Source of the DNA: Butyrivibrio sp.
GTDB lineage: Bacteria; Bacillota; Clostridia; Lachnospirales; Lachnospiraceae
NCBI GenBank assembly: GCA_015056585.1
Contig: SVFZ01000053.1
Coordinates: forward strand, 21,304-85,303
Direction: 5' to 3'
Length of the DNA stretch: 64,000 nt
Every line of letters begins with the position of its first letter. Within the stretch, counting starts at the first letter, position 1. This document shows, one piece after another, positions 4,963 through 59,719 of this stretch. The notes under the pieces were generated by a model. It was not told where the DNA came from. It worked only from the letters and a program-made list of their open reading frames with translations, and searched no databases. The position numbers and the translations under genes are program-made.

Positions 4963-6186
4963 ATGAGAATACTCTTTTACGATTGGGACGAATTTAATGG
5001 TGCTGATTGCAGGGATGCGATGAAGAAGCTTGGGCATGAGGTGGAAACCTTCAGGCTCAACATGAAGGGGTATGACCTTACGCCTGAAATGGACGAAGCA
5101 ATCAGGGAGAAAGTTCTGCGAACATGTAGTGGTGAGGAAAATGAGCACAACGGATCAAGTTGCAGTTCTGAAAAACGATACTACGACCTTCTTTTTAGCT
5201 TCGACTATTTTCCAAATATATCAGAGGCCTGTCAGAAATATGGAATGCCATACGTGTCATGGGTATTTGACTGCCCTCATCATACACTTGATTCCCACAC
5301 AATAAACAATGAAGTAAACCGAGTATACCTATTTGATCGCAAGCTCTTTATGAATATGGTAAAAAAGGGTGTGAAAACGGTCAGATATTCGCCTCTTGGA
5401 GTGAATGAAAAGAGGCTTTCTGAGTTATGCAGGAATCTGGATGCTGAAACCGATGGAAATATCGTTTACGAGCATGATGTGTGCTTTCTTGGCAGCTTAT
5501 ATGACAATGAGTACAATTTCTATGATCAGGTAAAATATCTGCCTCCATACCTTAAGGGCTATATAGATGCTGTGATAAAGGCTCAGGAGAGAATTTTCGG
5601 GGCGGATCTTTTTACAGAGGCTTCTATTATCAGTAAAGAGCATATCAAAGAGCTGAGGGATTATATAAAATTTGAAGATACAGGGAAATATGATATTGAT
5701 TATGACAGTGTAATGCTGGAGATTCTTCGCAAAAAAGTTACTGTCAATGAGAGACATGAGATCCTTCGACAGATGGGAAAAAGATTTGACACTGTCCTCT
5801 ACACAGGCCCCGGAGCAAAGCCGATCGAGGGAGTATGTAACCTTGGCGTTGCCGATTATATGACGAAGATGCCGCGGGTTTTCCACAGAAGTAAGATCAA
5901 TCTCAATATAACCCTTCGATCTATTTTGTCGGGAGTACCCTTAAGAGTACTTGATGTGCTGGCAGCAGGTGGATTCCTTATAACCAATTATCAGGAAGAA
6001 ATAGCAGAGTACTTTGTGGATGGTGAAGATCTGGCAATTGCCTATACGCCGGAAGATATGATAAGACTAACACAATACTACCTTGAACATGAAGAGGAAA
6101 GAAAGCATATTGCGATGAATGGGCAGAGGAAGGTAATGGAGATGTTCTCCTATACCAAGTTATTGCCGAATATCCTAAGAATATAA
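4963..6186 (+). CDS. CgeB-like glycosyltransferase (DUF3880 + Glyco_trans_1_2)
   Basis: 407 residues with the two-part layout of CgeB-type proteins: an N-terminal DUF3880-like half ('FSFDYFPNIS', 'YVSWVFDCP') and a C-terminal GT-B half ('LNITLRSILSGVPLRVLDVL', 'GGFLITNYQ'). Three paralogues lie at 11799, 13619 (minus strand) and 14911. Family members are predicted cytoplasmic sugar transferases; genes of this type are often found next to flagellin genes, so flagellin glycosylation is the natural reading (inference). A GAGGGA site sets the ATG; TATAAT at 4922-4927 may be the -10. It is monocistronic between two terminators and precedes the flaG operon. Substrate unknown. Confidence 0.8.
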   Translation: MRILFYDWDEFNGADCRDAMKKLGHEVETFRLNMKGYDLTPEMDEAIREKVLRTCSGEENEHNGSSCSSEKRYYDLLFSFDYFPNISEACQKYGMPYVSWVFDCPHHTLDSHTINNEVNRVYLFDRKLFMNMVKKGVKTVRYSPLGVNEKRLSELCRNLDAETDGNIVYEHDVCFLGSLYDNEYNFYDQVKYLPPYLKGYIDAVIKAQERIFGADLFTEASIISKEHIKELRDYIKFEDTGKYDIDYDSVMLEILRKKVTVNERHEILRQMGKRFDTVLYTGPGAKPIEGVCNLGVADYMTKMPRVFHRSKINLNITLRSILSGVPLRVLDVLAAGGFLITNYQEEIAEYFVDGEDLAIAYTPEDMIRLTQYYLEHEEERKHIAMNGQRKVMEMFSYTKLLPNILRI

Positions 6187-6243
6187 CTCTTATGAAAAAC
6201 TCTTAAAAACTACAGAGATTTGTTAATTAGAACAGATGATTGC

Positions 6244-6281
6244 AAAAATCCTAAAATTTTTATTAATTTTAGGATTTTTTC
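6244..6281 (+). terminator. Intrinsic terminator
   Basis: AT-rich but long stem aaaaatcctaaaat / attttaggattttt followed by a T run (ttttttctttt). Confidence 0.75.
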
Positions 6282-6292
6282 TTTTAAAGGCA

Positions 6293-6319
6293 TAAAGAAA
6301 AAAAGACTAATACCGATAT
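6293..6319 (+). promoter_or_regulatory. Sigma-28 promoter of the flaG-fliD-fliS operon
   Basis: TAAA, 15 nt, ACCGATAT, just after the preceding terminator and about 95 nt upstream of flaG. It matches the SigD/FliA consensus at all but one -10 base. Confidence 0.75.
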
Positions 6320-6413
6320 AAAGGATAAGTAAATCTGTCAAACTTTATTGTATTTACATGCAACTAACATATAGTAAGGAGTTTTCCTGATTCTGACATG
6401 GAGGTATAGGATT

Positions 6414-6893
6414 ATGGGAATCGAGGCAATTAATGGCTTTAGTCCGCTGATCCAGCAGACTCAGCCGCAGGTAAGAACACAGGTACAGGAGCAGAGCCAG
6501 TCTCAGTCAGAGATAGCTAATGCGGAGGCCACAGGCGCCACTCAGAATATTGAACTCAAAGTCGAGGCTACTGACAACTCAGCAGGCTCTAGAAATGACG
6601 GCCAGACCGGTCCACAGGCTTATACTCAGGCCCAGAACCATATCGCAGAAACAGAGGAGAAGATCCAGGCTGATAATGCGAAGGTTCATAAGGCTATCAC
6701 AGAGATGACAAAAAAAATGAGCTCCAATGCTGAAGCTGTGTTTGGAATTCACGAAAAAACCAACAGAGTTACCATTAAGATGGTGGACAAAGAGACTAAA
6801 AAGGTCATAAAGGAATTTCCACCGGATGAAACGCTTGATATGATCGCCAAGGTATGGGAAATTGCCGGCATAATGGTAGATGAAAAGCGTTAA
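6414..6893 (+). CDS. flaG: Flagellar protein FlaG
   Basis: 159 residues. The C-terminal 80 residues carry the FlaG domain: a helix, then 'VFGIHEKTNRVTIKMVDKETKKVIKEFPPDETLDM', a recognisable FlaG signature (conversion of the phrase 'IREIPPEEML' in other species). The N-terminal half is Gln/Ser/Thr-rich and low complexity. FlaG affects filament length in several bacteria and is usually encoded next to fliD, as here. Start: GGAGG nine nt upstream of ATG. First gene of the flaG-fliD-fliS-fliT-like operon. Confidence 0.9.
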   Translation: MGIEAINGFSPLIQQTQPQVRTQVQEQSQSQSEIANAEATGATQNIELKVEATDNSAGSRNDGQTGPQAYTQAQNHIAETEEKIQADNAKVHKAITEMTKKMSSNAEAVFGIHEKTNRVTIKMVDKETKKVIKEFPPDETLDMIAKVWEIAGIMVDEKR

Positions 6894-6963: not shown

Positions 6964-8475
6964 ATGCCTATCAGAATTACTGGAATGAATTCGGGCCTTG
7001 ATACTGAGAGCATCATAACTGCGCTTACCAGTAGCAAGCAGACAAAACTGGATACTGCCAAGGGCGACCAGAAAAAACTCACCTGGAAACAGGATAAGTG
7101 GAAAGAACTTAATAAAAAGGTCGTTTCTTTCTATAATGGCACTCTTGCCAACATGAGATTTTCATCGGCATATACAAAGAAAACCACGACAACTTCTAAC
7201 GATAAAGCTGTAAGTGTTATAACCGGCGATAAGGCAATGAATACTACGCAGAAGCTGAGTATTACCAGTCTTGCCAGTTCAGCATATATGACCGGTGGCA
7301 AAATGTCATCAAGCGGAGATATCACCGGCTCTACTACTGTGGATCAGCTTACCGGATTTTCAGCAGGTCCGCTCACTATTTCACTTGGTGATCCTGAAGA
7401 TGCTGAAAATCTCAAGACTTACACTGTTGATGTGGAAAGCTCTGACACAATACAAGGTGTTATAGATAAGTTAAAAGAAAAAGTTGGAGACAAGATCAAT
7501 TTCAACTTTGATGAAAAGAACGGAAGGATATTCGCTTCTGCCAAGGAGTCTGGCGCTGAGAATACATTCAGAATTTCAGGAAGCGCAGCTGATGCATTGG
7601 GACTTTCTGAAGCAAAAGCAAAATATCTTGATGGATCAAGTGCTTCCATTACTTTAAATGGTGAGACCTATACCAGCAATAGCAACACCTTTGAAATCAA
7701 TGGTCTTACGATTACAGCCAATGAAGTAGCTGATAATATAACACTTACCACCAAACAGGATACCAGTGGTATTTATGACAACATCAAGAACCTGATTAAA
7801 GAGTATAACGACCTCATGAAGGAATTCGCAACACTGTATAATGCGGATGCTGCGACCAAATATAAGATGCTCACTGACGAACAGAAGGATGCAATGAGTG
7901 AGAAAGAGGTCGAAGAGTGGGAAAATAAGATAAAGTCAGGGCTCATGAGTAAAGATGAGACTATTGGCAATCTTCGTACCGCGCTGAGAACAATTGCAGG
8001 TAATTCATTTGAAATATCCCTTAAAGACGGGACAAAGGCAAGCTATTCATTAGCATCTTTTGGAATTTCAACAGGCAGTTATTTCTCAACAGAAGAGAAT
8101 GAAAGAGATGCACTTCATATAGACGGAGATCCGGATGATACAACTACCAGCGGAAATACAGATCTTTTAAAAGCTATGATCTCATCTGATCCGGATGCTG
8201 TTATGAATTTCTTTACTGAGTTTTCAAGAAATATGTACAGTAAGCTGTCAGATCTTATGAAGGGAACAGAGTACAGCAGTTCTTTCACAATCTACGAAGA
8301 TAAGCTTATGGCATCTCAGTATAGTGCATATAATACAAAGATATCTGATGCGCAGTCAGCACTGGAAGCAGCTCAGGACAAACTTTACAAGAAGTTCTCC
8401 AAGATGGAAACTGCATTATCCAAGATCAACAGCTCCAGTGGATCTTTATCCAGTTTCTTTGGCGGCGGCAGTTGA
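6964..8475 (+). CDS. fliD: Flagellar filament cap protein FliD (HAP2)
   Basis: FliD caps the filament tip and folds flagellin onto it; it is exported by the flagellar type III system. The N-terminus 'PIRITGMNSGLDTESIITALTS' and the C-terminus with helices up to 'LSSFFGGGS' fit FliD (FliD_N and FliD_C); 503 residues is normal. The ORF track starts at 6958, but that ATG is one nt from the GGAG; ATG 6964 is seven nt away and begins with the conserved MPIRITG, so I use it. Its chaperone FliS/FliT-type genes follow. Confidence 0.95.
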   Translation: MPIRITGMNSGLDTESIITALTSSKQTKLDTAKGDQKKLTWKQDKWKELNKKVVSFYNGTLANMRFSSAYTKKTTTTSNDKAVSVITGDKAMNTTQKLSITSLASSAYMTGGKMSSSGDITGSTTVDQLTGFSAGPLTISLGDPEDAENLKTYTVDVESSDTIQGVIDKLKEKVGDKINFNFDEKNGRIFASAKESGAENTFRISGSAADALGLSEAKAKYLDGSSASITLNGETYTSNSNTFEINGLTITANEVADNITLTTKQDTSGIYDNIKNLIKEYNDLMKEFATLYNADAATKYKMLTDEQKDAMSEKEVEEWENKIKSGLMSKDETIGNLRTALRTIAGNSFEISLKDGTKASYSLASFGISTGSYFSTEENERDALHIDGDPDDTTTSGNTDLLKAMISSDPDAVMNFFTEFSRNMYSKLSDLMKGTEYSSSFTIYEDKLMASQYSAYNTKISDAQSALEAAQDKLYKKFSKMETALSKINSSSGSLSSFFGGGS

Positions 8476-29661: not shown

Positions 29662-29689
29662 TAAAGTATAAGGTCCTTATCGCCGATAT
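29662..29689 (+). promoter_or_regulatory. Sigma-28 promoter of third flagellin gene
   Basis: TAAA, 16 nt, GCCGATAT; the -10 is 45 nt from the ATG, giving a leader of only about 40 nt. Confidence 0.8.
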
Positions 29690-29734: not shown

Positions 29735-30913
29735 ATGGTAATACAACATAACTTGTTTGCTATGAATGCAAATCGAATGCACAACATAATTGCCAAGGAC
29801 AAAGCCCGCATTTCTGAAAAATTATCTTCCGGATATAAGGTAAACCGTGCGGCTGATGATACTGCAGGTCTTGCAATATCCGAAAAAATGAGAAAACAGA
29901 TCCGTGGTCTTAATCAGGCGTCTTTAAACGCACAGGATGGTATTTCATGTGTGCAGTCAGCTGAAGGTGCACTTAATGAAGTACATGAGATGTTGCAGCG
30001 GATGAATGAGTTATGTGTAAAAGCAGCCAATGATACAAATGATGTTACAGATCGCGAGTATATCCAAAGCGAAATAGATGCACTCGTAGAAGAAATAGAT
30101 CGGGTTGGAGCGACCACGACTTTTAACGAAATAAAGCTTTTAAACGGAGAAAGGCAAGACCATATTACAGCGCTAACTCCGACACTCGATTACGCAGGCA
30201 TTCAGAATCAGTTGCTTGTACAGGCAACTGAGGATAGTTTGGCATATTTCTCGGTTAAACCTCTGAACGAGGGGGATATATTGACCAAAACTGAAGGTTC
30301 TGAAACTGTTTTTTATAAGGTAAACGGTTCAGATGTAGATGCTGATGGAACAGCAGAGCATCCATATTCAATTGAGAAAAAAGAAGTCTATAAACATATA
30401 TGTGAAAGAATCCTCGATGCCAATGTCATTCAGACGGGGCATGTAAGCGTCTCATATGCTATAGGCGGACCGGATGAGGGAAAGTTCAATATAGAGTTTA
30501 AAGCTCCGCTGAGTATCAAGCTACAGATTGGATCAGAAGTCGAGGATGAAAACCAGATGACTATCATTATCAATCCGATAAATAGTTCATCATTGGGAGT
30601 CCATAACGTTAATGTCACCGGCGCGACAAATGATGGAGCATTAACAGGAATGGATTTGGTCAAAAGAGCTATAGAAAAAAACTCAAGAGAAAGATCAAAC
30701 CTTGGAGCATATCAGAACAGGTTAGAGCACACAATTAAAAATCTGGATAATGTTGCTGAAAATACTCAGGCTGCAGAATCCAAGCTCAGAGATACAGACA
30801 TGGCGCAAATGATATCTGAGATGGCTAAAAAAGATATCCTTATGCAGGCCGGACAAATGATTTTATCACAGGCAAACAAAAGTAAAGAGGCAGTGGTTCA
30901 ATTGCTTCAGTAA
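29735..30913 (+). CDS. Divergent flagellin (copy 3, with enlarged central domain)
   Basis: 392 residues from ATG 29735 (MVIQHNLFAMNANRMHN); the track start at 29717 adds six codons from a TTG. Conserved D0/D1 ends ('SSGYKVNRAADDTAGLAISEKM', 'NRLEHTIKNLDNVAENTQAAES'), but with differences such as MCVKAAN and 'MISEMAKKDILMQAGQMILSQANKSKEAVVQLL'. A central insert of about 110 residues (150-260), including 'KPLNEGDILTKTEGSETVFYKVNGSD', replaces the short centre of copies 1 and 2. Shine-Dalgarno is weak (AGGT) and no GGA-type CsrA motif lies in the short leader, unlike copies 1 and 2. It is likely a minor or later-expressed subunit. Confidence 0.93.
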   Translation: MVIQHNLFAMNANRMHNIIAKDKARISEKLSSGYKVNRAADDTAGLAISEKMRKQIRGLNQASLNAQDGISCVQSAEGALNEVHEMLQRMNELCVKAANDTNDVTDREYIQSEIDALVEEIDRVGATTTFNEIKLLNGERQDHITALTPTLDYAGIQNQLLVQATEDSLAYFSVKPLNEGDILTKTEGSETVFYKVNGSDVDADGTAEHPYSIEKKEVYKHICERILDANVIQTGHVSVSYAIGGPDEGKFNIEFKAPLSIKLQIGSEVEDENQMTIIINPINSSSLGVHNVNVTGATNDGALTGMDLVKRAIEKNSRERSNLGAYQNRLEHTIKNLDNVAENTQAAESKLRDTDMAQMISEMAKKDILMQAGQMILSQANKSKEAVVQLLQ

Positions 30914-31048: not shown

Positions 31049-31075
31049 TAAGGTTCTGTGATAAAATGCCGATAT
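31049..31075 (+). promoter_or_regulatory. Sigma-28 promoter of secreted-protein gene pair
   Basis: TAAG, 15 nt, GCCGATAT, perfect in the -10. It is about 245 nt upstream of the 31322 gene, in the 408-nt gap between flagellin copy 3 and that gene. Confidence 0.7.
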
Positions 31076-31088
31076 AACAACTGAACAC

Positions 31089-31116
31089 TAAAGTTTATAA
31101 GTGATGATGTCGATAC
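31089..31116 (+). promoter_or_regulatory. Possible second, weaker sigma-28 site
   Basis: TAAA, 16 nt, GTCGATAC. Overall match is poorer; it may be a tandem promoter or chance. Confidence 0.3.
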
Positions 31117-31321
31117 AGATATCAAGCGGTAGATAAGTAAAAGATATGAATTTTTGTTTTATCTGAATATGGTCTAAATTGAAACAACAATTCAATGATT
31201 TTATAGTTATTTAATAGATAATTTGGTTTTCTTTTGGTACAATACATCTAGCTAAAGAAAATTTTCGTGGAATACTGATATCTAAGAACGGTGAATGAAA
31301 GTATTTTGGAGGTTGTAACTA

Positions 31322-31873
31322 ATGAGTTCAGAACAAAAGGCAGACTCTCCTAAAAGCGTCAAGGCCGTGATAGTTGCTGGAATCGCAGTAATCATCATCC
31401 TTCTGATTGTTGTGATTGTCTTGTTGCTTACAAGGGGAGGCAAAGAAGGAAAGGAGGAACCAAAGGAAGAAGCCAGACGAAATGTTCTAGTGACTGAAGA
31501 AAATGTCGAAGAGGTGGCTGATGATTTTTTTAATGAAGAATATACACCTCCGGGATACTTCAGTGCGACAATGAGCAATGTTTGGCACTTTTCTACCGGA
31601 GATGCAGTATCGGAAGATGCATATGTTGCAGATGACAGTTCGAATTCAAATGATATTTATTTTGACATTTTTTTAGCAGAAGATGAGGATGAGAACAATC
31701 CGATATATCAGTCTCCTGTCATCCCGTTAGGAGGTGAGCTGAAAAACATCAAATTAGATAAAGAACTTAAAGCTGGTACCTATGATTGTATTATGATTTA
31801 TCATCTTGTGGATGAAGAGCAGAAGACACTGGATACCATAAGAGTTGGACTCACTATAATAGTTGGGCCATAA
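31322..31873 (+). CDS. Membrane-anchored extracellular protein, unknown function
   Basis: 183 residues. Residues 14-38 form one strong membrane helix (VIVAGIAVIIILLIVVIVLLL) after a short charged N-terminus, followed by a positively charged stretch and an outside domain of about 130 residues. The domain has acidic beta segments and a recognisable pattern 'YQSPVIPLGGELKNIKLDKELKAGTYDCIMIYHLVDEEQKTL', which I have seen as a recurring domain in Lachnospiraceae but cannot name. GGAGG start. A short hairpin (ccatgac/gtcatgg) separates it by 61 nt from the secreted protein 31935, probably its partner. Sigma-28-like promoters upstream suggest coordination with flagella. Confidence 0.6.
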   Translation: MSSEQKADSPKSVKAVIVAGIAVIIILLIVVIVLLLTRGGKEGKEEPKEEARRNVLVTEENVEEVADDFFNEEYTPPGYFSATMSNVWHFSTGDAVSEDAYVADDSSNSNDIYFDIFLAEDEDENNPIYQSPVIPLGGELKNIKLDKELKAGTYDCIMIYHLVDEEQKTLDTIRVGLTIIVGP

Positions 31874-31934
31874 TTAAAGTAACTGCCATGACATGAGGTC
31901 ATGGAAAATATACATAATCAAGGAGGATATTTTT

Positions 31935-32987
31935 ATGAGTTTCAAAAAAATCACAGCATTCTTTTTAGCAACAACAATGGTACTTGGAAGCACATTTACC
32001 GCATTTGCAGCTGATACAGATCCAACTGGAAGCGGAAGTGGTGAGGGTGCCGGTACTAGTGAGGGTACAGTAAATACGACCGTCACAAAGGTAATTGTTC
32101 CAACAGATTCAACAGTATCCAGTGCTTTAGCATTTAGGATTGACCCTCAGCGGCTTATTCAGGAAACAGAGGCAGCTGCATATAGTGGGTACACATTCCC
32201 TGACGCAGAGGATGATACTGGTGTTTATTTCCTTACAGGTGATAAAACATACTCAAATGAAAGTAGTACATTCTACTTCGTAAACAAAGGATCAAAAGAT
32301 GTTACATTTACACTAACAGCTAAAGTTGTTGCAAATGCTGCTGCAACAGATATAACACTCGGATCAAAGGCAGATGCAACAGCGGCTTCACCTACAGCTG
32401 CTAAACTATATCTTGGAGCATCCTTTGGCGGAGATGCTGTTCAGCTTGCTACAGATACAGCTGGAAAGAAAGCTGTTCTGGCAGGTGTACCGGGAAACTT
32501 TAGCTATACATGGGACGAAGAGAACGGTTATCAGTATGTTGCAGTTGGTAATACCTGGAAGGCAGTTCCTGTTAAGTTCGAAGGTGCTGTAACTAAATAT
32601 GCTATTGAAGATACTGCAACGGTTCCAAAGCTTAGCCTTGCATGGGCATGGGCAGCAAAGGGAGAAAGCGATACTGATGATGCTGCTGTCACAGTAAGTG
32701 ATTATACTGAAGGCCCATCTGCTACTCCTGCATCAATGAGCGTAAATGCTAAGTCAGCAGCCATTAGTGGACTTGGTGATGGCGTAAGAATTAAATCTGC
32801 TCAAGTTGTAAAAGCTGATAACACAACTATAGCATTGACAGCAACTACTCAGTATACTTTCACAAACAATACATTTGCTATTGTTAGTGGAAAAGAAGTA
32901 CTGCTAGATAACACTAAGTATCAGAAATTTGTTCTGACATTTACAGATGATTCTGTTGTTAACATTCCAATTGTTGCTGGAGAGTAA
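31935..32987 (+). CDS. Secreted protein of unknown family, sigma-28 linked
   Basis: 350 residues. Signal peptide MSFKKITAFFLATTMVLGSTFTAFA-A (cleavage about residue 26), then a Gly/Ser/Thr-rich linker and a beta-rich domain of about 215 residues with 'LAFRIDPQRLIQETEAAAY', 'STFYFVNKGSKDVTFTLTAKV', 'FSYTWDEENGYQY' and 'VPKLSLAWAWAAK'. The same pattern recurs in the 52806 protein. The last 75 residues (about 275-350) hold a small beta domain. No anchor is visible. The track starts at 31893; ATG 31935 with AAGGAGG is correct. It lies downstream of 31322 under the sigma-28-like promoter; a surface or filament-associated role is plausible but unproven. Confidence 0.65.
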   Translation: MSFKKITAFFLATTMVLGSTFTAFAADTDPTGSGSGEGAGTSEGTVNTTVTKVIVPTDSTVSSALAFRIDPQRLIQETEAAAYSGYTFPDAEDDTGVYFLTGDKTYSNESSTFYFVNKGSKDVTFTLTAKVVANAAATDITLGSKADATAASPTAAKLYLGASFGGDAVQLATDTAGKKAVLAGVPGNFSYTWDEENGYQYVAVGNTWKAVPVKFEGAVTKYAIEDTATVPKLSLAWAWAAKGESDTDDAAVTVSDYTEGPSATPASMSVNAKSAAISGLGDGVRIKSAQVVKADNTTIALTATTQYTFTNNTFAIVSGKEVLLDNTKYQKFVLTFTDDSVVNIPIVAGE

Positions 32988-33036: not shown

Positions 33037-33091
33037 GCGCACCTGCGATTTGAAAGAAGTTATGTTCTTTTCATTTTGCGGGTGCGTTTTT
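33037..33091 (+). terminator. Long-stem terminator upstream of glycan operon
   Basis: Stem of about 20 bp (gcgcacctgcgatttgaaagaa / ttcttttcattttgcgggtgcg), then TTTTT. The next start codon is only 17 nt beyond the T run, so the operon from 33109 may depend on read-through or a promoter I could not identify. Confidence 0.75.
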
Positions 33092-33108: not shown

Positions 33109-34152
33109 ATGAAAGAAAAGAAACTTACAACTTATGATGTACTACATGTGGGGGATAGCTTCTACTATGTTTGTAATGAATTTAATTTGTTGATCAAATT
33201 CACTGGAAAGGGAGAGCATAAAATTATCGGGGTTATTCCTGAAGAGTCTTTGGATGCAAAAGCCCTGATTTCGCAGATGATGCTCATCAATGAAAGAATA
33301 ATACTAATACCGCTAAATGCCAAAAACATTTGGATTTATCAAATAAATAATCAAAAATGGCATTGCATTAGAATTGAAAATGAGAGCTGTGAATACAAGT
33401 TTATGAAGGCAATCCAGGAAGCTAATAAATTATATTTTTTCCCTAGTAGATATAAGAAAATGATAGTTCTCGATGTTTTGACAGATGAAGTAAGATATAT
33501 AGAAATTGCAGATAAATCACAAGGAATATGTAATAGTACATTTTTTAGATCGGACATAGTGGTAAAAGACAAGATGGTATATGCGGCGTATTGCGGAGGT
33601 GACTATATCTTCGAATTTAATTTGCTTGATGAGACCTATGAATGGAAAAAAGTGGGAACTGATGTTCAAGGATATTGCGGAATTGCATGGGATAGTGAGA
33701 AATTCTGGTTATTGTCTAAAATGAATGAGAAGAAAGTGTTTACTTGGGATGGAAAAGCTAGTGTTGGCACAGTAGAAATTGCTACAAGTGATAGAGGGAG
33801 AAACCGAGGCATTACAGTAATAAGCGGTGAAATCATTGTTTTAAGGGACAATGAGTCTATTACTATGAATTTAAACGCTAATAAAGATAGTTGCGACAGG
33901 GCGCCGGCGTATTTCTTTTGTAAAAAAAATGCTAATACGACTTCTTTTTTGCGATATAATAGTGAATATACATGGATTCAAAATGATGCTGAGCATAGAA
34001 TCAATTTAACGTTGTCGGATAAGATGATAAACAACTATTTCAGTGGAAAGATGGATATTAAAGAGAGTTATTTCTTTTCTCACAATGAAGTAGTCACTGA
34101 GAATGAATTATTTAGGATTTCAGATTTCGTTAAGGTATTATCTAGCCAGTAA
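33109..34152 (+). CDS. Hypothetical protein, probable beta-propeller
   Basis: 347 residues from ATG 33109 (AGAGG seven nt upstream; 33103 would be too close). No signal peptide or membrane segment. The sequence is a run of short beta segments with Trp/Tyr turns ('KNIWIYQINNQKWHCI', 'YIFEFNLLDETYEWKKV', 'KVFTWDGKASVGTVEIATS'), which suggests a Kelch/WD-like propeller. I do not recognise a family. It is the first gene of the packed glycan operon and could hold a substrate or scaffold other proteins (speculation). Its stop lies 14 nt before the FrhB-like gene. Confidence 0.45.
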   Translation: MKEKKLTTYDVLHVGDSFYYVCNEFNLLIKFTGKGEHKIIGVIPEESLDAKALISQMMLINERIILIPLNAKNIWIYQINNQKWHCIRIENESCEYKFMKAIQEANKLYFFPSRYKKMIVLDVLTDEVRYIEIADKSQGICNSTFFRSDIVVKDKMVYAAYCGGDYIFEFNLLDETYEWKKVGTDVQGYCGIAWDSEKFWLLSKMNEKKVFTWDGKASVGTVEIATSDRGRNRGITVISGEIIVLRDNESITMNLNANKDSCDRAPAYFFCKKNANTTSFLRYNSEYTWIQNDAEHRINLTLSDKMINNYFSGKMDIKESYFFSHNEVVTENELFRISDFVKVLSSQ

Positions 34153-51426: not shown

Positions 51427-52545
51427 TCAGAGTTTCACCATAATCTTTACATATTCTTCGGATTTCCTTCGCATAATATCAAGACCCTTATCCAAATCTT
51501 CAAGAGAAAATCTGTGGGTGATAAGGTCAGCAGGGGAAAAATGGGGCTGCGAAGATTTGGGATTATTTTTCCAGGCATCAAGACGCGAAAGAACGTAGCG
51601 CCAGTCATCTTCCGGACCATAATATGAAGAATTCCAGGTTCCAAGGAGAGTCAGTTGATTTCTTAATATTTTCCAATAACTGTCTTTGGACAGTTCCATG
51701 TCAGAAGCAGGGTTTCCCACCAGCATTACTGTTCCAAGTGGCGCAGTGCACTTAACAGCCTGTTCATAGCTTTCACTTCGGCCTATACATTCAAAGTAGC
51801 AGTCGGCGCCATGGCCTTTTGTTTTTTCGTATATAAAGCTTACGGGATCTCCATAGCGGACATCGCAGAAGCAGTCTTCGTCATACCCCATCTGAAGGAG
51901 CTTTTGCTTCTGTATATCTTTATTTCCGATACATAACACATTATTAAAGCCTGCATCCTTTAGGAAAAGAGCCATCAAAAGCCCAATGGTTCCAAGCCCG
52001 CACACTACGATAGCGGAATCTGTGCTTATATAAGGATAAGAAGATGCCGGAGAACATGATGATTCCGGACCAAGAGATACGCCAAGTGCTCTTCTCATGG
52101 CGTGGACAGCCACAGCCATAGGCTCAAACATCGCAGCTTCTTCGTCAGATACACTGTCAGGCAGAGGTAAAAGATTCCACAAAGGTGCGCAGACGTATTC
52201 GGCAAATCCGCCGTCACGGCGCGATCCGAGATAGTTGTAGTTTTCGCACATTTCATAGTGGGAAGTAAGGCACTGAGCGCACTTCATGCAGGGAATCAGA
52301 GGAAAGATGCCGACTCTTTTGCCAATCAGATCTGTATTGTCGCTGCACTCCTCTACACATCCGGTAAATTCATGTCCGGGAATAAGAGGCATATTGTGAG
52401 CGCCGGTCTTGAAAATTCGCGGAATATCAGAGCCGCAGATGCCGCAGGCCGTGACCTTTATCAGGGCTTCGCCGGGCTTTGGTGAAGGCCTGCCGGTCTT
52501 TGTCAGTTTCAGATTTCCAATTCCATATAAAATCTGGGCTCTCAT
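51427..52545 (-). CDS. Zinc-dependent medium-chain (polyol-type) dehydrogenase
   Basis: 372 residues from ATG 52545 (GGAGGC). MDR family: 'GICGSDIPRIF' (Cys), 'PGHEFTG' (HE), structural-zinc cysteines 'PCMKCAQCLTSHYEMC', Rossmann 'VVCGLGTIGLLMALF'. It is closest in style to galactitol-1-phosphate/sorbitol dehydrogenases. Possible role: interconversion of a keto-sugar phosphate and polyol phosphate, with the TarI-like gene at 54505 supplying CDP activation (inference). It is followed by the minus-strand GGDEF gene but 102 nt apart. Confidence 0.85.
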   Translation of the reverse strand: MRAQILYGIGNLKLTKTGRPSPKPGEALIKVTACGICGSDIPRIFKTGAHNMPLIPGHEFTGCVEECSDNTDLIGKRVGIFPLIPCMKCAQCLTSHYEMCENYNYLGSRRDGGFAEYVCAPLWNLLPLPDSVSDEEAAMFEPMAVAVHAMRRALGVSLGPESSCSPASSYPYISTDSAIVVCGLGTIGLLMALFLKDAGFNNVLCIGNKDIQKQKLLQMGYDEDCFCDVRYGDPVSFIYEKTKGHGADCYFECIGRSESYEQAVKCTAPLGTVMLVGNPASDMELSKDSYWKILRNQLTLLGTWNSSYYGPEDDWRYVLSRLDAWKNNPKSSQPHFSPADLITHRFSLEDLDKGLDIMRRKSEEYVKIMVKL

Positions 52546-52714
52546 CTTTGCCTCCGGAATTATGCACAATAAGTGAAGTACAATGTAGATAATAATATTT
52601 TATACTAAATACTGATAATAATTCAATTAAATAGGGAATGTTAGTGCTTTGTGAAAACTATTAAAGCAAATTCCGCTTCCTTTTCTTAAATTTCACTAAA
52701 ACTTTCCTAAACTC

Positions 52715-52741
52715 TAATATTTTTCGGATCTGTGCCGATAT
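52715..52741 (+). promoter_or_regulatory. Sigma-28-like promoter of secreted-protein gene
   Basis: TAAT, 15 nt, GCCGATAT, perfect -10 and one mismatch in the -35. About 65 nt upstream of ATG 52806. Confidence 0.65.
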
Positions 52742-52805
52742 AATGTATGTAGACAAAGTGGCTTTTTATAAGCTTTATTTTGGGCTTTTGCCCGGAGGCA
52801 CACGG

Positions 52806-54422
52806 ATGTTAGTAAGAAAATACCAATGGATGGGTGTTATTTCTTTTATTCTTACGCTCTTTCTTTTGACTGATTCCCTGACGGTGCTGGCTACAGAGAC
52901 CGGAACTATAGAAGGGGACGGAAACAGCGAGAAGGTAGAGCAATATATAGTTGATGAAGACGAGATCTGGGCTCAGATAGATAGGGATGAGCTGAGGTCT
53001 TTGATTGATGTTGAGGCACTTAAGGAAACGATCGATGAGGATGCACTTAGGGCTGAAATTGACAAAGCACCGCTCCTTGAAAAGATAAATGACCTAACCC
53101 TTTTGGACAGCATGAATGCTGAGGAGATTCTCAAAGAATATAATTCTTTAAAAGAGTCCGACAAACTGGATGAGCTGATAAAAGACATTGTGGAGTCAGA
53201 TGACTTTGATGAGGACTTTATTAAGAATCACCCGGTTGACGTGCCAAACGTTAAGGTTCCGATCATAAGCGGCGAGAGTCCCCTTGACTATATCGTTGAT
53301 CCGATGGGACTGATATACCAGACCGAAGCAGCAAGATATGGCGGCGGAAATGTTCAGGAAAATGCAACTCTGTTATTTAGAAATCACGAGGGGGATTATC
53401 TTTTCTCCGACACCAGCGATATGCTGAATATCGTAAATAGAGGCAATGTACCTCTTCAGGTTACGATCAGTGCAAAGCTTGAAGGTGCAGATGAGGTCAG
53501 CATGGTGGATTCACGCTCAGAACTTGGAGGGTATGATCCGCAGCTGTTCATGGCTCTTGTGGGAAAAGAGGGAATTATTTCGGTACTTAATGACAGCGGA
53601 ACCTCTGAGATCACTGTGGTTTTGAAGGCTGTTCCTGAGGGTACATACAAATATACACTGAATGAAGAGACGGGAAAATATGAGTCGGAGATTTCTGAAA
53701 AAGCGGACGAATCAACCTTTGATTCTTTCAGCTTTGGAGTTACCGGAGATTGTAATAACGATGCAGACTGGTCTAAAGTTGGCAATCTTCCCAAAATATC
53801 CGTGACCTGGAAGACAGAGCCTGTCCTCACAGATTGGGATAAAGTGAACGAAGAGCTTGAGGAAGCTGATAAGGTCAAGTTTGAAGCCTTTAAAAAGGTG
53901 AAGCTTGCGGCTCTTCGCGATGAAGAACTTGAAAGACTTGTGCAGATACAGCTGGATGAGCTTGTGTCTGAAGAACTTGATAAGCTTATAGATGAAGAAG
54001 TTGAAAGGCTCGCAAAAGAGAAGTTTGAAGAGTTAAAGCAAATGGCTATAACAGAGGCATTTGGCGAAGTGCCTGATGATGAGGATCCTGTTATAGAGGA
54101 TACAAGCGGATCGGACGAGATACTGCTTATAGATGAGACTGAGGTAAAAGAGAAATCGGCTGCCGATACGGAATCTGAAGCTGAAACCGGTAACGGAGAA
54201 ACTAAGTCAATTCCGGAAGAAGGAAAAGCAGAAGAAAACTCAGATGGCGAAGTTCTTGGCGCAAAAAGGGAAGCTGTTGAGTTTTTTAGCTCTGAAAGCG
54301 CAGAACAGAATATTTCCGGCGCTGCAGAGGAGAATATCAGTGATGCCGGGGCAGGAAGCACTGATGAACCCGTGCTGTTCATTAATGAAGAAGACAGTGC
54401 AGGTGAGACGATAATTTTCTGA
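52806..54422 (+). CDS. Secreted coiled-coil protein of the 31935 family
   Basis: 538 residues from ATG 52806 (GGAGG). Signal peptide (MLVRKYQWMGVISFILTLFLL...VLA-TE). Residues 45-130 are acidic heptad-like helices (ELRSLIDVEALKETIDEDALRAEIDKA). Residues about 148-340 match the domain of the 31935 protein: 'LDYIVDPMGLIYQTEAARYGG', 'LNIVNRGNVPLQVTISAKL', 'YKYTLNEETGKYES', 'LPKISVTWKTEP'. Residues 345-420 are a second coiled coil. The C-terminal 110 are acidic and contain 'VLGAKR'. No LPxTG or membrane anchor. Sigma-28-like promoter upstream. Function unknown. Confidence 0.65.
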   Translation: MLVRKYQWMGVISFILTLFLLTDSLTVLATETGTIEGDGNSEKVEQYIVDEDEIWAQIDRDELRSLIDVEALKETIDEDALRAEIDKAPLLEKINDLTLLDSMNAEEILKEYNSLKESDKLDELIKDIVESDDFDEDFIKNHPVDVPNVKVPIISGESPLDYIVDPMGLIYQTEAARYGGGNVQENATLLFRNHEGDYLFSDTSDMLNIVNRGNVPLQVTISAKLEGADEVSMVDSRSELGGYDPQLFMALVGKEGIISVLNDSGTSEITVVLKAVPEGTYKYTLNEETGKYESEISEKADESTFDSFSFGVTGDCNNDADWSKVGNLPKISVTWKTEPVLTDWDKVNEELEEADKVKFEAFKKVKLAALRDEELERLVQIQLDELVSEELDKLIDEEVERLAKEKFEELKQMAITEAFGEVPDDEDPVIEDTSGSDEILLIDETEVKEKSAADTESEAETGNGETKSIPEEGKAEENSDGEVLGAKREAVEFFSSESAEQNISGAAEENISDAGAGSTDEPVLFINEEDSAGETIIF

Positions 54423-54504
54423 GGAAAACCGGAATCGTTGACCGGAAAATGGGCTTGCTGTTCATAATACGAAAAAAAGTAACAATAATTTGGGTGGGGA
54501 ACAA

Positions 54505-55203
54505 ATGAATATAGCGATAATTCTTGCAGGTGGTGTTGGAAGCCGCGTCAAGTCAGATATCCCAAAACAGTTCGTTGAGCTGTCGGGGAAAATGATGATA
54601 ATTCACAGCATGGAGCCCTTCGGGGAGTCGATGTTTGTAAACAATATCCAGATTGTTGCGGATAGTTCCTACAGGGAGATGATTGAGGACGCCTTGACGG
54701 ATGAACCTCTTATATCCGAAAAAGTTCTTGGCTTTTCAGATCCGGGAGAAAACAGGCAGCTTTCAATATATAACGCCCTGAAAGATATTGAGAAAATGGG
54801 CCTTGGAGACATGGTGGATGGTGTTATCATCCATGATGCCGCAAGGCCTTTTGTCATGCGCGAAACTATAGAGGAGTGCCTGCTTTCCCTTGACAAGCAT
54901 GATGGTGCAATGCCTGTGCTCCCGATGAACGACACCGTGTACTTTAGCAGGACCGGAGAAAGAGTGGATGAACTCTTAAACCGTAACACTATTTTTGCGG
55001 GACAGGCGCCGGAAGCCTTCAGGTTTCACAAGTATTTGAAGGCGAATGAAGATCTTTTGCCGGACAAGATCCTTATGATAAAAGGCTCTACGGAACCTGC
55101 AATAATGGCAGGAATGGATGTGGCGATGATTCCCGGAGATCAGAGGAACTTTAAGGTTACTACCGATGTGGATCTGGAGCGGGCCAAAGAGTATTACAGA
55201 TAA
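54505..55203 (+). CDS. IspD/TarI-like cytidylyltransferase
   Basis: 232 residues from ATG 54505 (GGTGGGG). 'IILAGGVGSRVKSDIPKQFVELSGK' (CTP-binding loop), 'IIHDAARPFV', 'FKVTTDVDLERA' define the family of 2-C-methylerythritol-4-phosphate and ribitol-5-phosphate cytidylyltransferases. The motif reads LAGG rather than the AAG of typical IspD, and 'FAGQAPEAF' replaces QTPQ, so a polyol-phosphate substrate (TarI-like) seems at least as likely as methylerythritol phosphate. LicD and CDP-glycerol-transferase-like genes here would need a CDP-polyol donor. Confidence 0.8.
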   Translation: MNIAIILAGGVGSRVKSDIPKQFVELSGKMMIIHSMEPFGESMFVNNIQIVADSSYREMIEDALTDEPLISEKVLGFSDPGENRQLSIYNALKDIEKMGLGDMVDGVIIHDAARPFVMRETIEECLLSLDKHDGAMPVLPMNDTVYFSRTGERVDELLNRNTIFAGQAPEAFRFHKYLKANEDLLPDKILMIKGSTEPAIMAGMDVAMIPGDQRNFKVTTDVDLERAKEYYR

Positions 55204-55783: not shown

Positions 55784-58700
55784 ATGCTAAGAAAATGTAG
55801 CAGGCTGCTTGCGGCTTTTATGGCAGCTGCCCTCGTAATCACTACCTTTGGTAGTGATTTTTCTAATGCAAGAGCATGGGCGGCAGAGGATGAGGTCGCA
55901 GAAGAGATCCAAAATGAAGGATCCGGTGATGGTATCGTAACAGCTGACTGGGAGAAGGTACCGGAATCAGACGGTGATGGCGCTCAAGGCTCTGAAGAGG
56001 TGGCTCCGGATGGGACTACTGAGAATACTCAAAGCGAAGATGAGCAAAATGGCGGTTCTTCATCTGAAAATACCGATGAGCCGGGGACTGAGACTTTTGC
56101 CGAAAATGGTGAAACCACCAATGGTACAGAAATTGCAGCAGGCACCGAAGGCAGAGGTGCTGCTACAGATGCTGCGTCTGAGGACATAACTTCTGACGAA
56201 ACAGGTGCAGATGCATCTACAGACGCAGTTTCTTTAGAAGCATCAGAGACAGATGCCAAGGAGCTTTCAGAGTCTGCTGATGAGAAGAAAGCTTCGGAAG
56301 AAGAGGAGGCTGAGTACCCCGCCCAGTCTTTTGCCGGTTCTGTTTCAGAAATGAACGTTTCCGTAGAGGCTGAGGAGGGTGCATTTCCAAAAGGAACACA
56401 GATGAAGCTCTCTGCTATTTCCGAAGCGCAGGCTGTTTCAGCTGCTGAGAATGCACTTGATGGCGAGGTTAAGGCAGCTAAAGGTGTAGACATCTCTTTT
56501 GCAGATGCAGAGGGAAAAGAGATTGAGCCAAAAGGCGCAGTCAAAGTATCAATCTCTCTTGCAAATGCTCTTGAGGGTGATAACTTCAGCGTCGTACACC
56601 TTGATGACAGCGGAAATGCAGAAAAGGTGGCAAATGCATCTGAGAGTGGAGCAGACTTTACGGCTGATTCTTTCTCTGTTTACATTGTTGCGGGATCAGG
56701 CGATTCCGGAGCAGACCATGATGATCAAAAAGCAATCGCTACATACAACTTCCATGTAAATGATACTTTGTTTGACACCAGGCTTGTAAAGAAAGGTGAT
56801 GATCTGCCAAATCCCGGAATACCTGCCGTTGATTCCGACAACAACGAAGTTTTCCTCGGATGGTTTGAGAAAAAAGCGGATGGCACTTTTGTTGATGAAC
56901 CTTTTACTTTCGGAACCGTCGGAGACGTAGAAGCCGGCAAAACCTACGATATCTATGCTAAGGTAGAAACTACATATTATCTTACATTTATAGGACTTGA
57001 GGGCGAAATCTTCCATGTTAAAAAAGTAGTTGCAACCAATGACGAGAGTACGATTGTGGATACAAGCGATATAGGAGTCTCTGACGAAAAACGCTATGAG
57101 ACTTCTGAGAATAAGAAATTTATCGGATGGGCACTTACATCAGGTATAACAGTGACATCGAGCAGCGATCCGGCAATTCTCAAAGAAGTGGATGTGGCCA
57201 AAGTTGATACTGTTTATGCAGTTCAGTGCAGTTATGTCTGGATTTCTTTTGACGAGAATGTAGGAAACTCATACAGTGGCGTATCCTATACAATGCCGAT
57301 AATGGCAACTTACGATTCTTCAGCTGTTGAGCCTGCAAAGCCTACAAGACCTCAGTATGATTTCGTCTGCTGGTGTACAGATAAAGAGGGCAACAACCCT
57401 TATGACTGGAGCACTGTGATTGGTTCGACTGCTGAGACCCAGAATGATTTTACTCTTTATGCAAAGTGGAAAGAGGCAGAGGATACAACCTATACGGTTG
57501 TTGTATGGCAGCAGAATCTTGATGGAAGCACATTTGATTATTTCAAGACCTTCACAAATATAGCCGGCAAAACCGGGGCAAAAGTGGACGAAGCCCTTCT
57601 GGCGGATTATTTGGATCTTAATGAAAAGTACAAGGATCTCAAGTACTTTGAATATGACTCATCAAGAAAAGAGTTTGAAGTAGGAAGCACAGAGACAGGC
57701 TCTTTTGTAAAGTATTCTCCAGGTGAAGAAAAACTCAGTGTAAATCAGGATACAATTGTAAATCTTTACTATGTACGTAAAGAGATGACAATCAATTTCT
57801 ATGAGAATGTTGGCGATACAACTCCTGTCAAGACACTTAAAGGCCTCTATGAGCAGCCTATAGATAAAGGTCAGTGGCCTACAGATGAAGTTGTTTGGCA
57901 GTTCTACAAGGACGGCGATGAGAAGCCCTGGGATATGGACTTCATCGAGAGATATATTCTTGATAAGTACACAGACGGAACTGTACTTAATCTGTACAAG
58001 TTCGTAGGTGATGACAAAACAAAGGTTATTTTCCACTTCCTGAAAGAGACCCTTGATGGGGACTACGAAGAGGAAAGAATTATAGTACACACCACCGGTG
58101 AGAACGTAGATAAGGACGGAAATAAGACAGGTAAGAGATACAAGATTGCGGTAGAGAACTATTATCTTGGATTCGAGCCTTCCTTCTACAACACCTCCGG
58201 CGATGCATCTGACAATGAAAACAAGATCAGAGAAGGATCTATCATCGAGGGTGTAACCAGCCACGATGACTCACAGCAGGTTTATCTGTATTTTGACAGA
58301 GTGACAAGGTCTCTGGTATTCCAGGATAGCTATTATGGCAAGACTTCAGATGTGCCGGTGGATGCAGCTTATGCTGACATGTATGAGAACATCCTCTTTG
58401 AGCAGGATCTTAGCAAACCTGAGTATAAGGCAAATACACCTAAGGCTGAGGTGCTTGCGTCAAAAGCCGCATCCCGTCCCGGATACGAGCTGGTAACGGA
58501 TGGAGAGGGAAATATTATCTGGTATATTGATCAGACCGGGCAGACTCCTTATGCGTGGAATGATACAATGCCACTGTACAACAAGGTTCTTTACACTCAC
58601 TGGAAACCTGTTACATGTAATGTTAAGCTTATTGCCAACGGCGGAACAATAAACGGCGACGACGACTTTGATGTTCCTTACGGTGATAAGCTGGATAGAG

Positions 58701-59719
58701 TATCATATAATAATGATGACAAAAATACCGGCAAGGTTTATCGTGACGGATATGAGCTGGTGGGATGGTTTTACGAAAATAGGAGCAATACTCCGTACGA
58801 GTTTGGTGCAATAACAGAAGATATTGTTCTTGTAGCACACTGGAGAAATCCGGGAAAAGTAGTTGTAAAGTATGATGCAGCTCCTCATGGATCAGGAGAG
58901 CCGATTGATAAGTACAGCTACGCTGTAAAGTCTTCTGTTGTGGTTGGAGCACCTCCTACATCTGTTGAAGATAAATACGTATTTATCGGATGGACTATTG
59001 AAAACGATCCAAATGGAATTGTTTATTATCCTGATAACTGTTTCGATATTAAGGATGAGTACATTCAGAATATTGCCGGCACAAATACCATTATTTTAAA
59101 GGCTTTGTATGACACTGTCAGCGGAGATGGCCCTGAGGCTGAATATACAACCATCACTTACCACTCCAACTTTGGAACAGACCTTACGGTTACAGTTGTA
59201 AACGGAGCAGACGGAAAGCTTCGTGTCAATGAGACAGTGACAGCTCTTAGCGAAACTGACTGCGGCTTTAACAGGCCCGGCTACAGATTTGTGGGATGGA
59301 GTAAAAAATCCGGTGAAAACAATTATCCTGTTTTCGTATTGCCGGGTGAAAAGATTGCAGCAGACAATGATGGTACTCCTAACGATGTGTACGCGATCTG
59401 GGAGTTTGTACCGGATACACCTCCGGGACCATCTTCAACACCTCCGACAGACCCGCCTGCACCTCCTACAACTCCAAGTGATCCGGGAACACCGACAGAT
59501 CCGCCGGTGGTTCCACCGACAACTCCTTCTGTAACAGGACAGGCAGTTCTTGGTGAGAGAAGAGCCCTCACCCAGGGAGATGGAAGAGCTGTTCTTGGAG
59601 CAAGAAGGTCAAGAACTGAAGACACCACAGATGTTACAGGAAGAATCGTGGTGATCATCCTTGCAGGAATCGCTGCCGCAGGAATACTTGCGACCTATAG
59701 GAAAAAAGAAGAGGAATGA
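55784..59719 (+). CDS. Large cell-surface protein with InlB-type repeats
   Basis: 1311 residues, GGGAGGAG start. Signal peptide about 1-34 (...NARAWA-AED). Residues 35-180 are Glu/Ser/Thr/Gly-rich. About 185-310 is a domain 'SVSEMNVSVEAEEGAFPKGT... ADSFSVYIVAG' frequent in Firmicutes surface proteins. From about 315 follow Listeria-Bacteroides (InlB B) type repeats with 'FVGW', 'FVCWCTDKEGN', 'YAKW', best at 483-565, 944-1030 and 1122-1205. Then a Pro-rich stalk (1209-1245), 'AVLGERR...AVLGARR', a membrane helix (about 1285-1303) and tail RKKEEE. No LPxTG is seen. Adhesion is likely. Confidence 0.85.
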   Translation: MLRKCSRLLAAFMAAALVITTFGSDFSNARAWAAEDEVAEEIQNEGSGDGIVTADWEKVPESDGDGAQGSEEVAPDGTTENTQSEDEQNGGSSSENTDEPGTETFAENGETTNGTEIAAGTEGRGAATDAASEDITSDETGADASTDAVSLEASETDAKELSESADEKKASEEEEAEYPAQSFAGSVSEMNVSVEAEEGAFPKGTQMKLSAISEAQAVSAAENALDGEVKAAKGVDISFADAEGKEIEPKGAVKVSISLANALEGDNFSVVHLDDSGNAEKVANASESGADFTADSFSVYIVAGSGDSGADHDDQKAIATYNFHVNDTLFDTRLVKKGDDLPNPGIPAVDSDNNEVFLGWFEKKADGTFVDEPFTFGTVGDVEAGKTYDIYAKVETTYYLTFIGLEGEIFHVKKVVATNDESTIVDTSDIGVSDEKRYETSENKKFIGWALTSGITVTSSSDPAILKEVDVAKVDTVYAVQCSYVWISFDENVGNSYSGVSYTMPIMATYDSSAVEPAKPTRPQYDFVCWCTDKEGNNPYDWSTVIGSTAETQNDFTLYAKWKEAEDTTYTVVVWQQNLDGSTFDYFKTFTNIAGKTGAKVDEALLADYLDLNEKYKDLKYFEYDSSRKEFEVGSTETGSFVKYSPGEEKLSVNQDTIVNLYYVRKEMTINFYENVGDTTPVKTLKGLYEQPIDKGQWPTDEVVWQFYKDGDEKPWDMDFIERYILDKYTDGTVLNLYKFVGDDKTKVIFHFLKETLDGDYEEERIIVHTTGENVDKDGNKTGKRYKIAVENYYLGFEPSFYNTSGDASDNENKIREGSIIEGVTSHDDSQQVYLYFDRVTRSLVFQDSYYGKTSDVPVDAAYADMYENILFEQDLSKPEYKANTPKAEVLASKAASRPGYELVTDGEGNIIWYIDQTGQTPYAWNDTMPLYNKVLYTHWKPVTCNVKLIANGGTINGDDDFDVPYGDKLDRVSYNNDDKNTGKVYRDGYELVGWFYENRSNTPYEFGAITEDIVLVAHWRNPGKVVVKYDAAPHGSGEPIDKYSYAVKSSVVVGAPPTSVEDKYVFIGWTIENDPNGIVYYPDNCFDIKDEYIQNIAGTNTIILKALYDTVSGDGPEAEYTTITYHSNFGTDLTVTVVNGADGKLRVNETVTALSETDCGFNRPGYRFVGWSKKSGENNYPVFVLPGEKIAADNDGTPNDVYAIWEFVPDTPPGPSSTPPTDPPAPPTTPSDPGTPTDPPVVPPTTPSVTGQAVLGERRALTQGDGRAVLGARRSRTEDTTDVTGRIVVIILAGIAAAGILATYRKKEEE

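Follow-up and report, generated by a model that had tools for sequence, protein, structure and literature searches.

A sigma-28-type promoter conserved upstream of a predicted membrane and secreted protein pair encoded beside a flagellin gene in Butyrivibrio

The flagellins of the Lachnospirales are known immune antigens. Sigma-28 also serves products that are not flagellar: in Bacillus subtilis, autolysins under the control of SigD are secreted by the Sec route. The SigD regulon of C. difficile is a comparison case of a sigma-28 (FliA/SigD) regulon with non-flagellar products, at least in the portions of the published account on which we draw (PMC3865298). For Butyrivibrio fibrisolvens, the available sections of one report quote the sigma-28 consensus TAAA-N16-17-MCGATAa alongside the general consensus TAAA-N15-CCGATAT, and describe fliC as having two promoters, one of the sigma-28 type and one housekeeping (PMC3720852). 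Recombinase-linked invertible promoters are described, in excerpts of two further papers, for the C. difficile flagellar switch (PMC7446863) and for CwpV (PMC2784873). Non-flagellar, Sec-exported products of sigma-28 are already known; what appears to be new is the gene system presented here, comprising an adjacent pair (A and B) and a second B-type gene (BII), of which we found no description in the literature searched. Like the regulons of B. subtilis and C. difficile (the latter as far as the cited portions extend), this system would consist of secreted or surface proteins that are transcribed with flagella and exported by Sec, but unlike them its products are an undescribed pair plus BII, with no Pfam or NCBIfam family to their names.

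The window, by which we mean the whole 64,000-nt stretch of DNA analysed, derives from the Butyrivibrio-type Lachnospirales genome of a gut or rumen bacterium, and related loci are found in Butyrivibrio, Pseudobutyrivibrio and other Lachnospiraceae. The third flagellin gene of the window (29735-30913, + strand; PF00669 3e-40, PF00700 7e-22) is preceded by a sigma-28-type promoter motif, TAAA-N16-GCCGATAT, at 29662-29689 (+). The original prediction had placed a perfect -10 element with TAAG at 15 nt, followed by a protein pair, behind this third flagellin, whose identity is confirmed by the PF00669 match. The motif is present letter for letter: TAAG-N15-GCCGATAT (31049-31075, +) starts 136 nt past the end of the flagellin gene, with TAAG at 31049-31052 and the perfect GCCGATAT at 31068-31075, and is followed by genes A (31322-31873, +) and B (31935-32987, +). 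Since an intrinsic terminator (33037-33087, +; a 12-bp outer stem then TTTTT, -28.6 kcal/mol, z -6.3) lies directly downstream of B, A and B can be taken as a two-gene unit. No strong terminator was found between the third flagellin and A, and searches against Rfam gave no match across the window and four related loci. Beyond the terminator lies an unnamed gene (33109-34152), possibly encoding a propeller, homologues of which follow B in several relatives, some of them needing a second query.

The -10 element of the A-B promoter fits the GCCGATAT / NYCGATAN pattern, whilst its -35 element shares three of four bases with the TAAA that most relatives carry. Set against the B. fibrisolvens consensus as quoted, the site matches except that TAAG replaces TAAA. 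A second, weaker sigma-28-like site (TAAA-N16-GTCGATAC, 31089-31116, +) may be present in the window copy and, further downstream, there is a sigma-A-like site (TAGATA-N17-TACAAT, 31215-31243, +) that by itself is not above chance, though by eye similar sites can be found in genome G033, at the recombinase locus of genome G089 and at the paralogous A-B locus on contig C83 of the same genome as the window. The arrangement suggested before A resembles that described for B. fibrisolvens fliC, where a sigma-28 promoter is joined by a housekeeping one; unlike the fliC promoter, the window site would drive a non-flagellin operon. Across the window's own genome, the pattern TAA[AGT]-N14-16-GCCGATA has 26 matches as opposed to 13 when it is reversed, and many of those in intergenic positions stand before flagellar genes, among them flagellins, cheA and a FliK-like gene. 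Sites resembling TTAA-N15-NCCGATAT are present at many flagellins of the genus. Scored with a position-weight model built mostly from flagellin promoters, the window site came in the top 6% of background upstream regions and no better, a modest rank that reflects both the preference of the genus flagellins for GGTTAAG at -35 and the presence of flagellar and A genes in the background set.

Gene A is present in 21 of 79 genus genomes, and related loci were retrieved with a narrower alignment of A (A2), a search with B alone having found none. The upstream check that the original prediction proposed contradicts the notion that homologues always lack the promoter: scored with one fixed pattern, the 500 nt preceding A contain a sigma-28-type site at 18 of 23 loci, where 0.024 would be expected from the density of the motif per 500 nt measured on the same DNA. 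Antisense and reversed controls of the upstream pattern gave no sites at all. Two limits apply to this figure, in that the pattern follows the published consensus but was set after the upstream sequences had been viewed and is thus partly post hoc, and that the genomes are related, so that 18 site-bearing loci are not 18 independent events. Even so, conservation of the site is hard to explain without selection, and the reading of the A-B site as a sigma-28 promoter is well supported by these comparisons. Loci without a site are those of G013, G089 (two copies) and G101b, to which the strict pattern adds G082, where a GACGATAT variant precedes A and the same variant is found at one flagellin locus. 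Outside the genus, sites precede A in G149, G355, G314 and G329, which between them represent other genera and one further family; most distant families lack a sigma-28-type site before A.

Is the pair associated with flagella? Flagellins were found in all 61 sampled genus genomes, which makes a test of association within the genus impossible, and for this reason an order-level sample was used. Of the 21 genomes in which A was detected at E <= 1e-5, 18 also encode flagellin, versus 191 of all 295 in the sample; the three exceptions belong to the four genomes whose matches to A are weakest (E >= 4.7e-9). If the threshold is tightened to E <= 2e-9, a value picked after the result had been seen, every one of the 17 genomes that still match A encodes flagellin. 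In about half of the loci a flagellin lies within 10 kb of A, nearly always upstream and on the same strand, and in other genera A is close to flagellins in G149, G281 and G260; many site-bearing A loci have no flagellin directly upstream. Glycan genes are common downstream of A loci, and in the window those following the pair encode polysaccharide pyruvyl transferases, glycosyltransferases, RgpF and a CDP-glycerol glycerophosphotransferase. At one locus (L153) a FlaG-like reading frame, assigned by eye, sits directly upstream of A.

Protein A (183 amino acids, ATG start) has a predicted membrane helix at residues 12-37 followed by a predicted extracytoplasmic beta domain. Protein B (350 amino acids, ATG start) has a Sec signal peptide (...STFTAFA|ADTD); its N-terminal part is conserved, its C-terminal part variable, and its mature form is modelled as beta-rich with a mean pLDDT of 80.7. 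These predictions agree with the pairing of a one-helix membrane protein and a signal-peptide protein that had been proposed, and also with the assignment of B to an unnamed beta-rich family: neither A, B nor BII has a Pfam or NCBIfam match over the curated cut-off, TasA/CalY, WxL and S-layer families included, and comparison of A and B with the sequences of solved structures identified no family. Sub-threshold matches of A (TMEM154, FliL) fall on the membrane helix. The Sec signal in B and the membrane helix in A mean that neither looks like a substrate of flagellar type III export, so that the idea of surface proteins timed with flagella but leaving the cell by another route holds as far as sequence can take it. 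A is better conserved than B, and a signal-peptide protein is the next gene after A in most loci where that gene is readable, outside the genus as well as within it, and this secreted partner is maintained across genera. Comparing B with its counterpart in G035 gives 60% identity in the C-terminal part and 36% elsewhere, the pattern of a C-terminal part that is exchanged between strains. Foldseek gave weak matches of B to FimG-type pilins (FimG, E 6e-3) and of A to the chaperones CsuC and DraB (E 4e-3 to 7e-3), as well as to GbpA and cadherins, among others. A possible likeness to chaperone-usher pili would put B in the place of FimG and A in that of the CsuC/DraB chaperones: the best of these fold matches have E-values of 1e-3 to 7e-3, none below 0.001, with low TM-scores and no sequence similarity, and Ig-like folds match widely. 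We regard the resemblance as a weak lead and not as evidence of a pilus.

Some 20 kb further along the window is BII (52806-54422, +), which encodes a signal peptide, a domain shared with B and charged regions. BII and B are homologous by profile comparison (99.3% probability, E 1.6e-20). A site of the sigma-28 type, TAAT-N15-GCCGATAT (52715-52741, +), is located about 65 nt before the BII start, which we placed at 52806 because the alternative ATG at 52743 abuts the -10 box. The site recurs at orthologues, 13 of 20 of which have a strict match 28-78 nt upstream. BII is found in 20 of the 21 genus genomes that have A and in 5 of the 58 that do not (Fisher p 4e-13), often on the contig that bears A and no more than a few tens of kb from it. 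By eye, the genes flanking BII, one dehydrogenase-like (51427-52569) and one cytidylyltransferase-like (54490-55203), recall TarJ and TarI, and another dehydrogenase of this type, likewise assigned by eye, lies beside BII in G027 (L054). Nearby, 55784-59719 encodes a secreted protein of 1311 amino acids that carries Listeria-Bacteroides repeats (PF09479), has a membrane helix at its C-terminus and has the stretch VLGA[RK]R in common with BII.

At three loci A is found near a related tyrosine recombinase that lies between inverted repeats. These are the paralogous locus on C83 (L022; repeats of 19 bp, 95%), that of Butyrivibrio sp. MC2013 (G089, L134; 29 bp, 90%, and 621 bp, 97%) and that of Lachnospiraceae bacterium C10 (L153; 24 bp, 88%), and the repeat arms of all three share a TACGAA-like end. 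On C83, the 19-bp repeats bound a segment (L022 5472-7031) upstream of the A paralogue at 7147, which contains the recombinase gene (5564-6724, -), a sigma-A-like promoter facing A and a weak sigma-28 site; this segment is likely to be an invertible promoter of the genome's second A-B pair. The corresponding segment in Butyrivibrio sp. MC2013 (L134 8872-10435) holds a recombinase with an A-B operon on either side, the two being divergent and pointing away from it (L134 7135-12166). Protein identities between the copies are 95.6% for A and 42.5% for B, an arrangement suggestive of switching between two variants of B. No strict sigma-28 site was found before A in this genome or at L153, and these two loci indicate that sigma-28 is the usual but not the sole mode of control. 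The gene order suggests that an inversion switch may control A at the recombinase loci and, as in the C. difficile switches in the form in which the cited excerpts present them, these paralogous and related copies have a tyrosine recombinase and inverted repeats that flank a segment preceding the gene of a surface protein. Unlike those switches, the window copy has no inverted repeats that we could find.

About a dozen A loci have a short ORF between promoter and A, some 120-250 nt before A and with a Shine-Dalgarno stretch GGTGATGCC or a variant of it (L138, L028, L029, L030, L031, L032, L136, L137, L142, L143 and L153); the window copy has none. The ORF mostly ends in or near Pro-Pro, several examples reading REVREPPP, REVREPPPV or REVREPPV with synonymous codon changes, and in G013 it is kept with the prolines lost. 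A ribosome-stalling leader is one possible interpretation. Elsewhere in the genus the leader pattern occurs at a chance-like level, and it is only with copies before A that a Pro-Pro leader ORF or a sigma-28 site is seen. We considered and rejected an arrest peptide of the RAPP type (C-terminal R-[A/G, less often S/P/D]-P-P), the leader motif being mostly R-E-P-P(P); the term REPP is absent from PMC12992588.

Promoter and promoter conservation, gene pairing, export signals and co-occurrence with BII and flagellin genes can all be read from the DNA. From them we infer transcription by sigma-28, a surface location, a partnership of A with B and whatever appendage or adhesive role these might have. 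The explanation that we favour, with a probability of roughly 0.6, is that A and B belong to a Sec-exported, flagella-timed surface assembly in which A is the membrane partner, B the variable subunit and BII a third component. Sigma-28 RNA polymerase would read A-B as one two-gene transcription unit, so that both proteins appear late in flagellar assembly, when the filament is being built. B would leave the cell via Sec, not the flagellar exporter, and become a surface-exposed subunit, its conserved N-terminal part being structural and its C-terminal part varying and being swapped between strains. A would stay in the cytoplasmic membrane, its beta domain facing outward, partnering B by holding, assembling or anchoring it, and the larger BII, which shares a domain with B and has a sigma-28-type site to itself, would be a further part of the system.

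Other explanations need to be weighed against this. The motif before A could be incidental, with transcription of the pair depending on the housekeeping sigma factor or on read-through of the flagellin gene, as the sigma-A-like site downstream of the motif, the missing strong terminator between flagellin and A and the housekeeping promoter of B. fibrisolvens fliC, as that source describes it (PMC3720852), might suggest. Given that the motif is retained at most homologous loci, in sense orientation only, and that many motif-bearing loci have no flagellin immediately upstream, we consider this very unlikely.

Two further alternatives concern what the proteins do. B might be exported by Sec and then coat or decorate the flagellar filament, either as an associated protein or as something like a sheath, while A would serve as a tether in the membrane close to the base of the flagellum. 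A promoter of the type used by flagellins, the flagellin neighbourhood, the preference for flagellated genomes and the FlaG-like frame at L153 are all consistent with this, but neither B nor A matches flagellin or shows similarity to known filament proteins. Glycan genes, moreover, are roughly as frequent after the pair as flagellins are before it, so that a cell-wall protein fits too, and a filament coat seems rather improbable. Alternatively, A-B could be a general cell-wall surface antigen or adhesin, co-expressed with motility but forming no joint structure, A being a mere membrane-anchored companion. The exchangeable C-terminal part of B, the recombinase-linked copies and the downstream glycan island would suit such a role; however, the greater conservation of A and the retention of its secreted partner across genera argue for an obligatory A-B partnership, and we rate this alternative as unlikely.

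The flagella-timed assembly of A, B and BII thus remains our preferred reading. That relatives keep a flagella-type promoter before the pair implies that A-B is probably made whenever flagella are made, whilst a few copies seem to be switched by an invertible DNA segment rather than in this way. One could go further and see in A, B and BII a surface fibre new to Gram-positive gut bacteria, in which a membrane-tethered, chaperone-like A feeds a Sec-exported, pilin-like B with exchangeable tips into a structure built on the flagellar timetable, but we hold this to be a doubtful extension. If the preferred reading is correct, a Sec-exported surface system belonging to no named family would be added to the Lachnospirales flagellar regulon, and the timing of motility would be linked to a variable surface protein.
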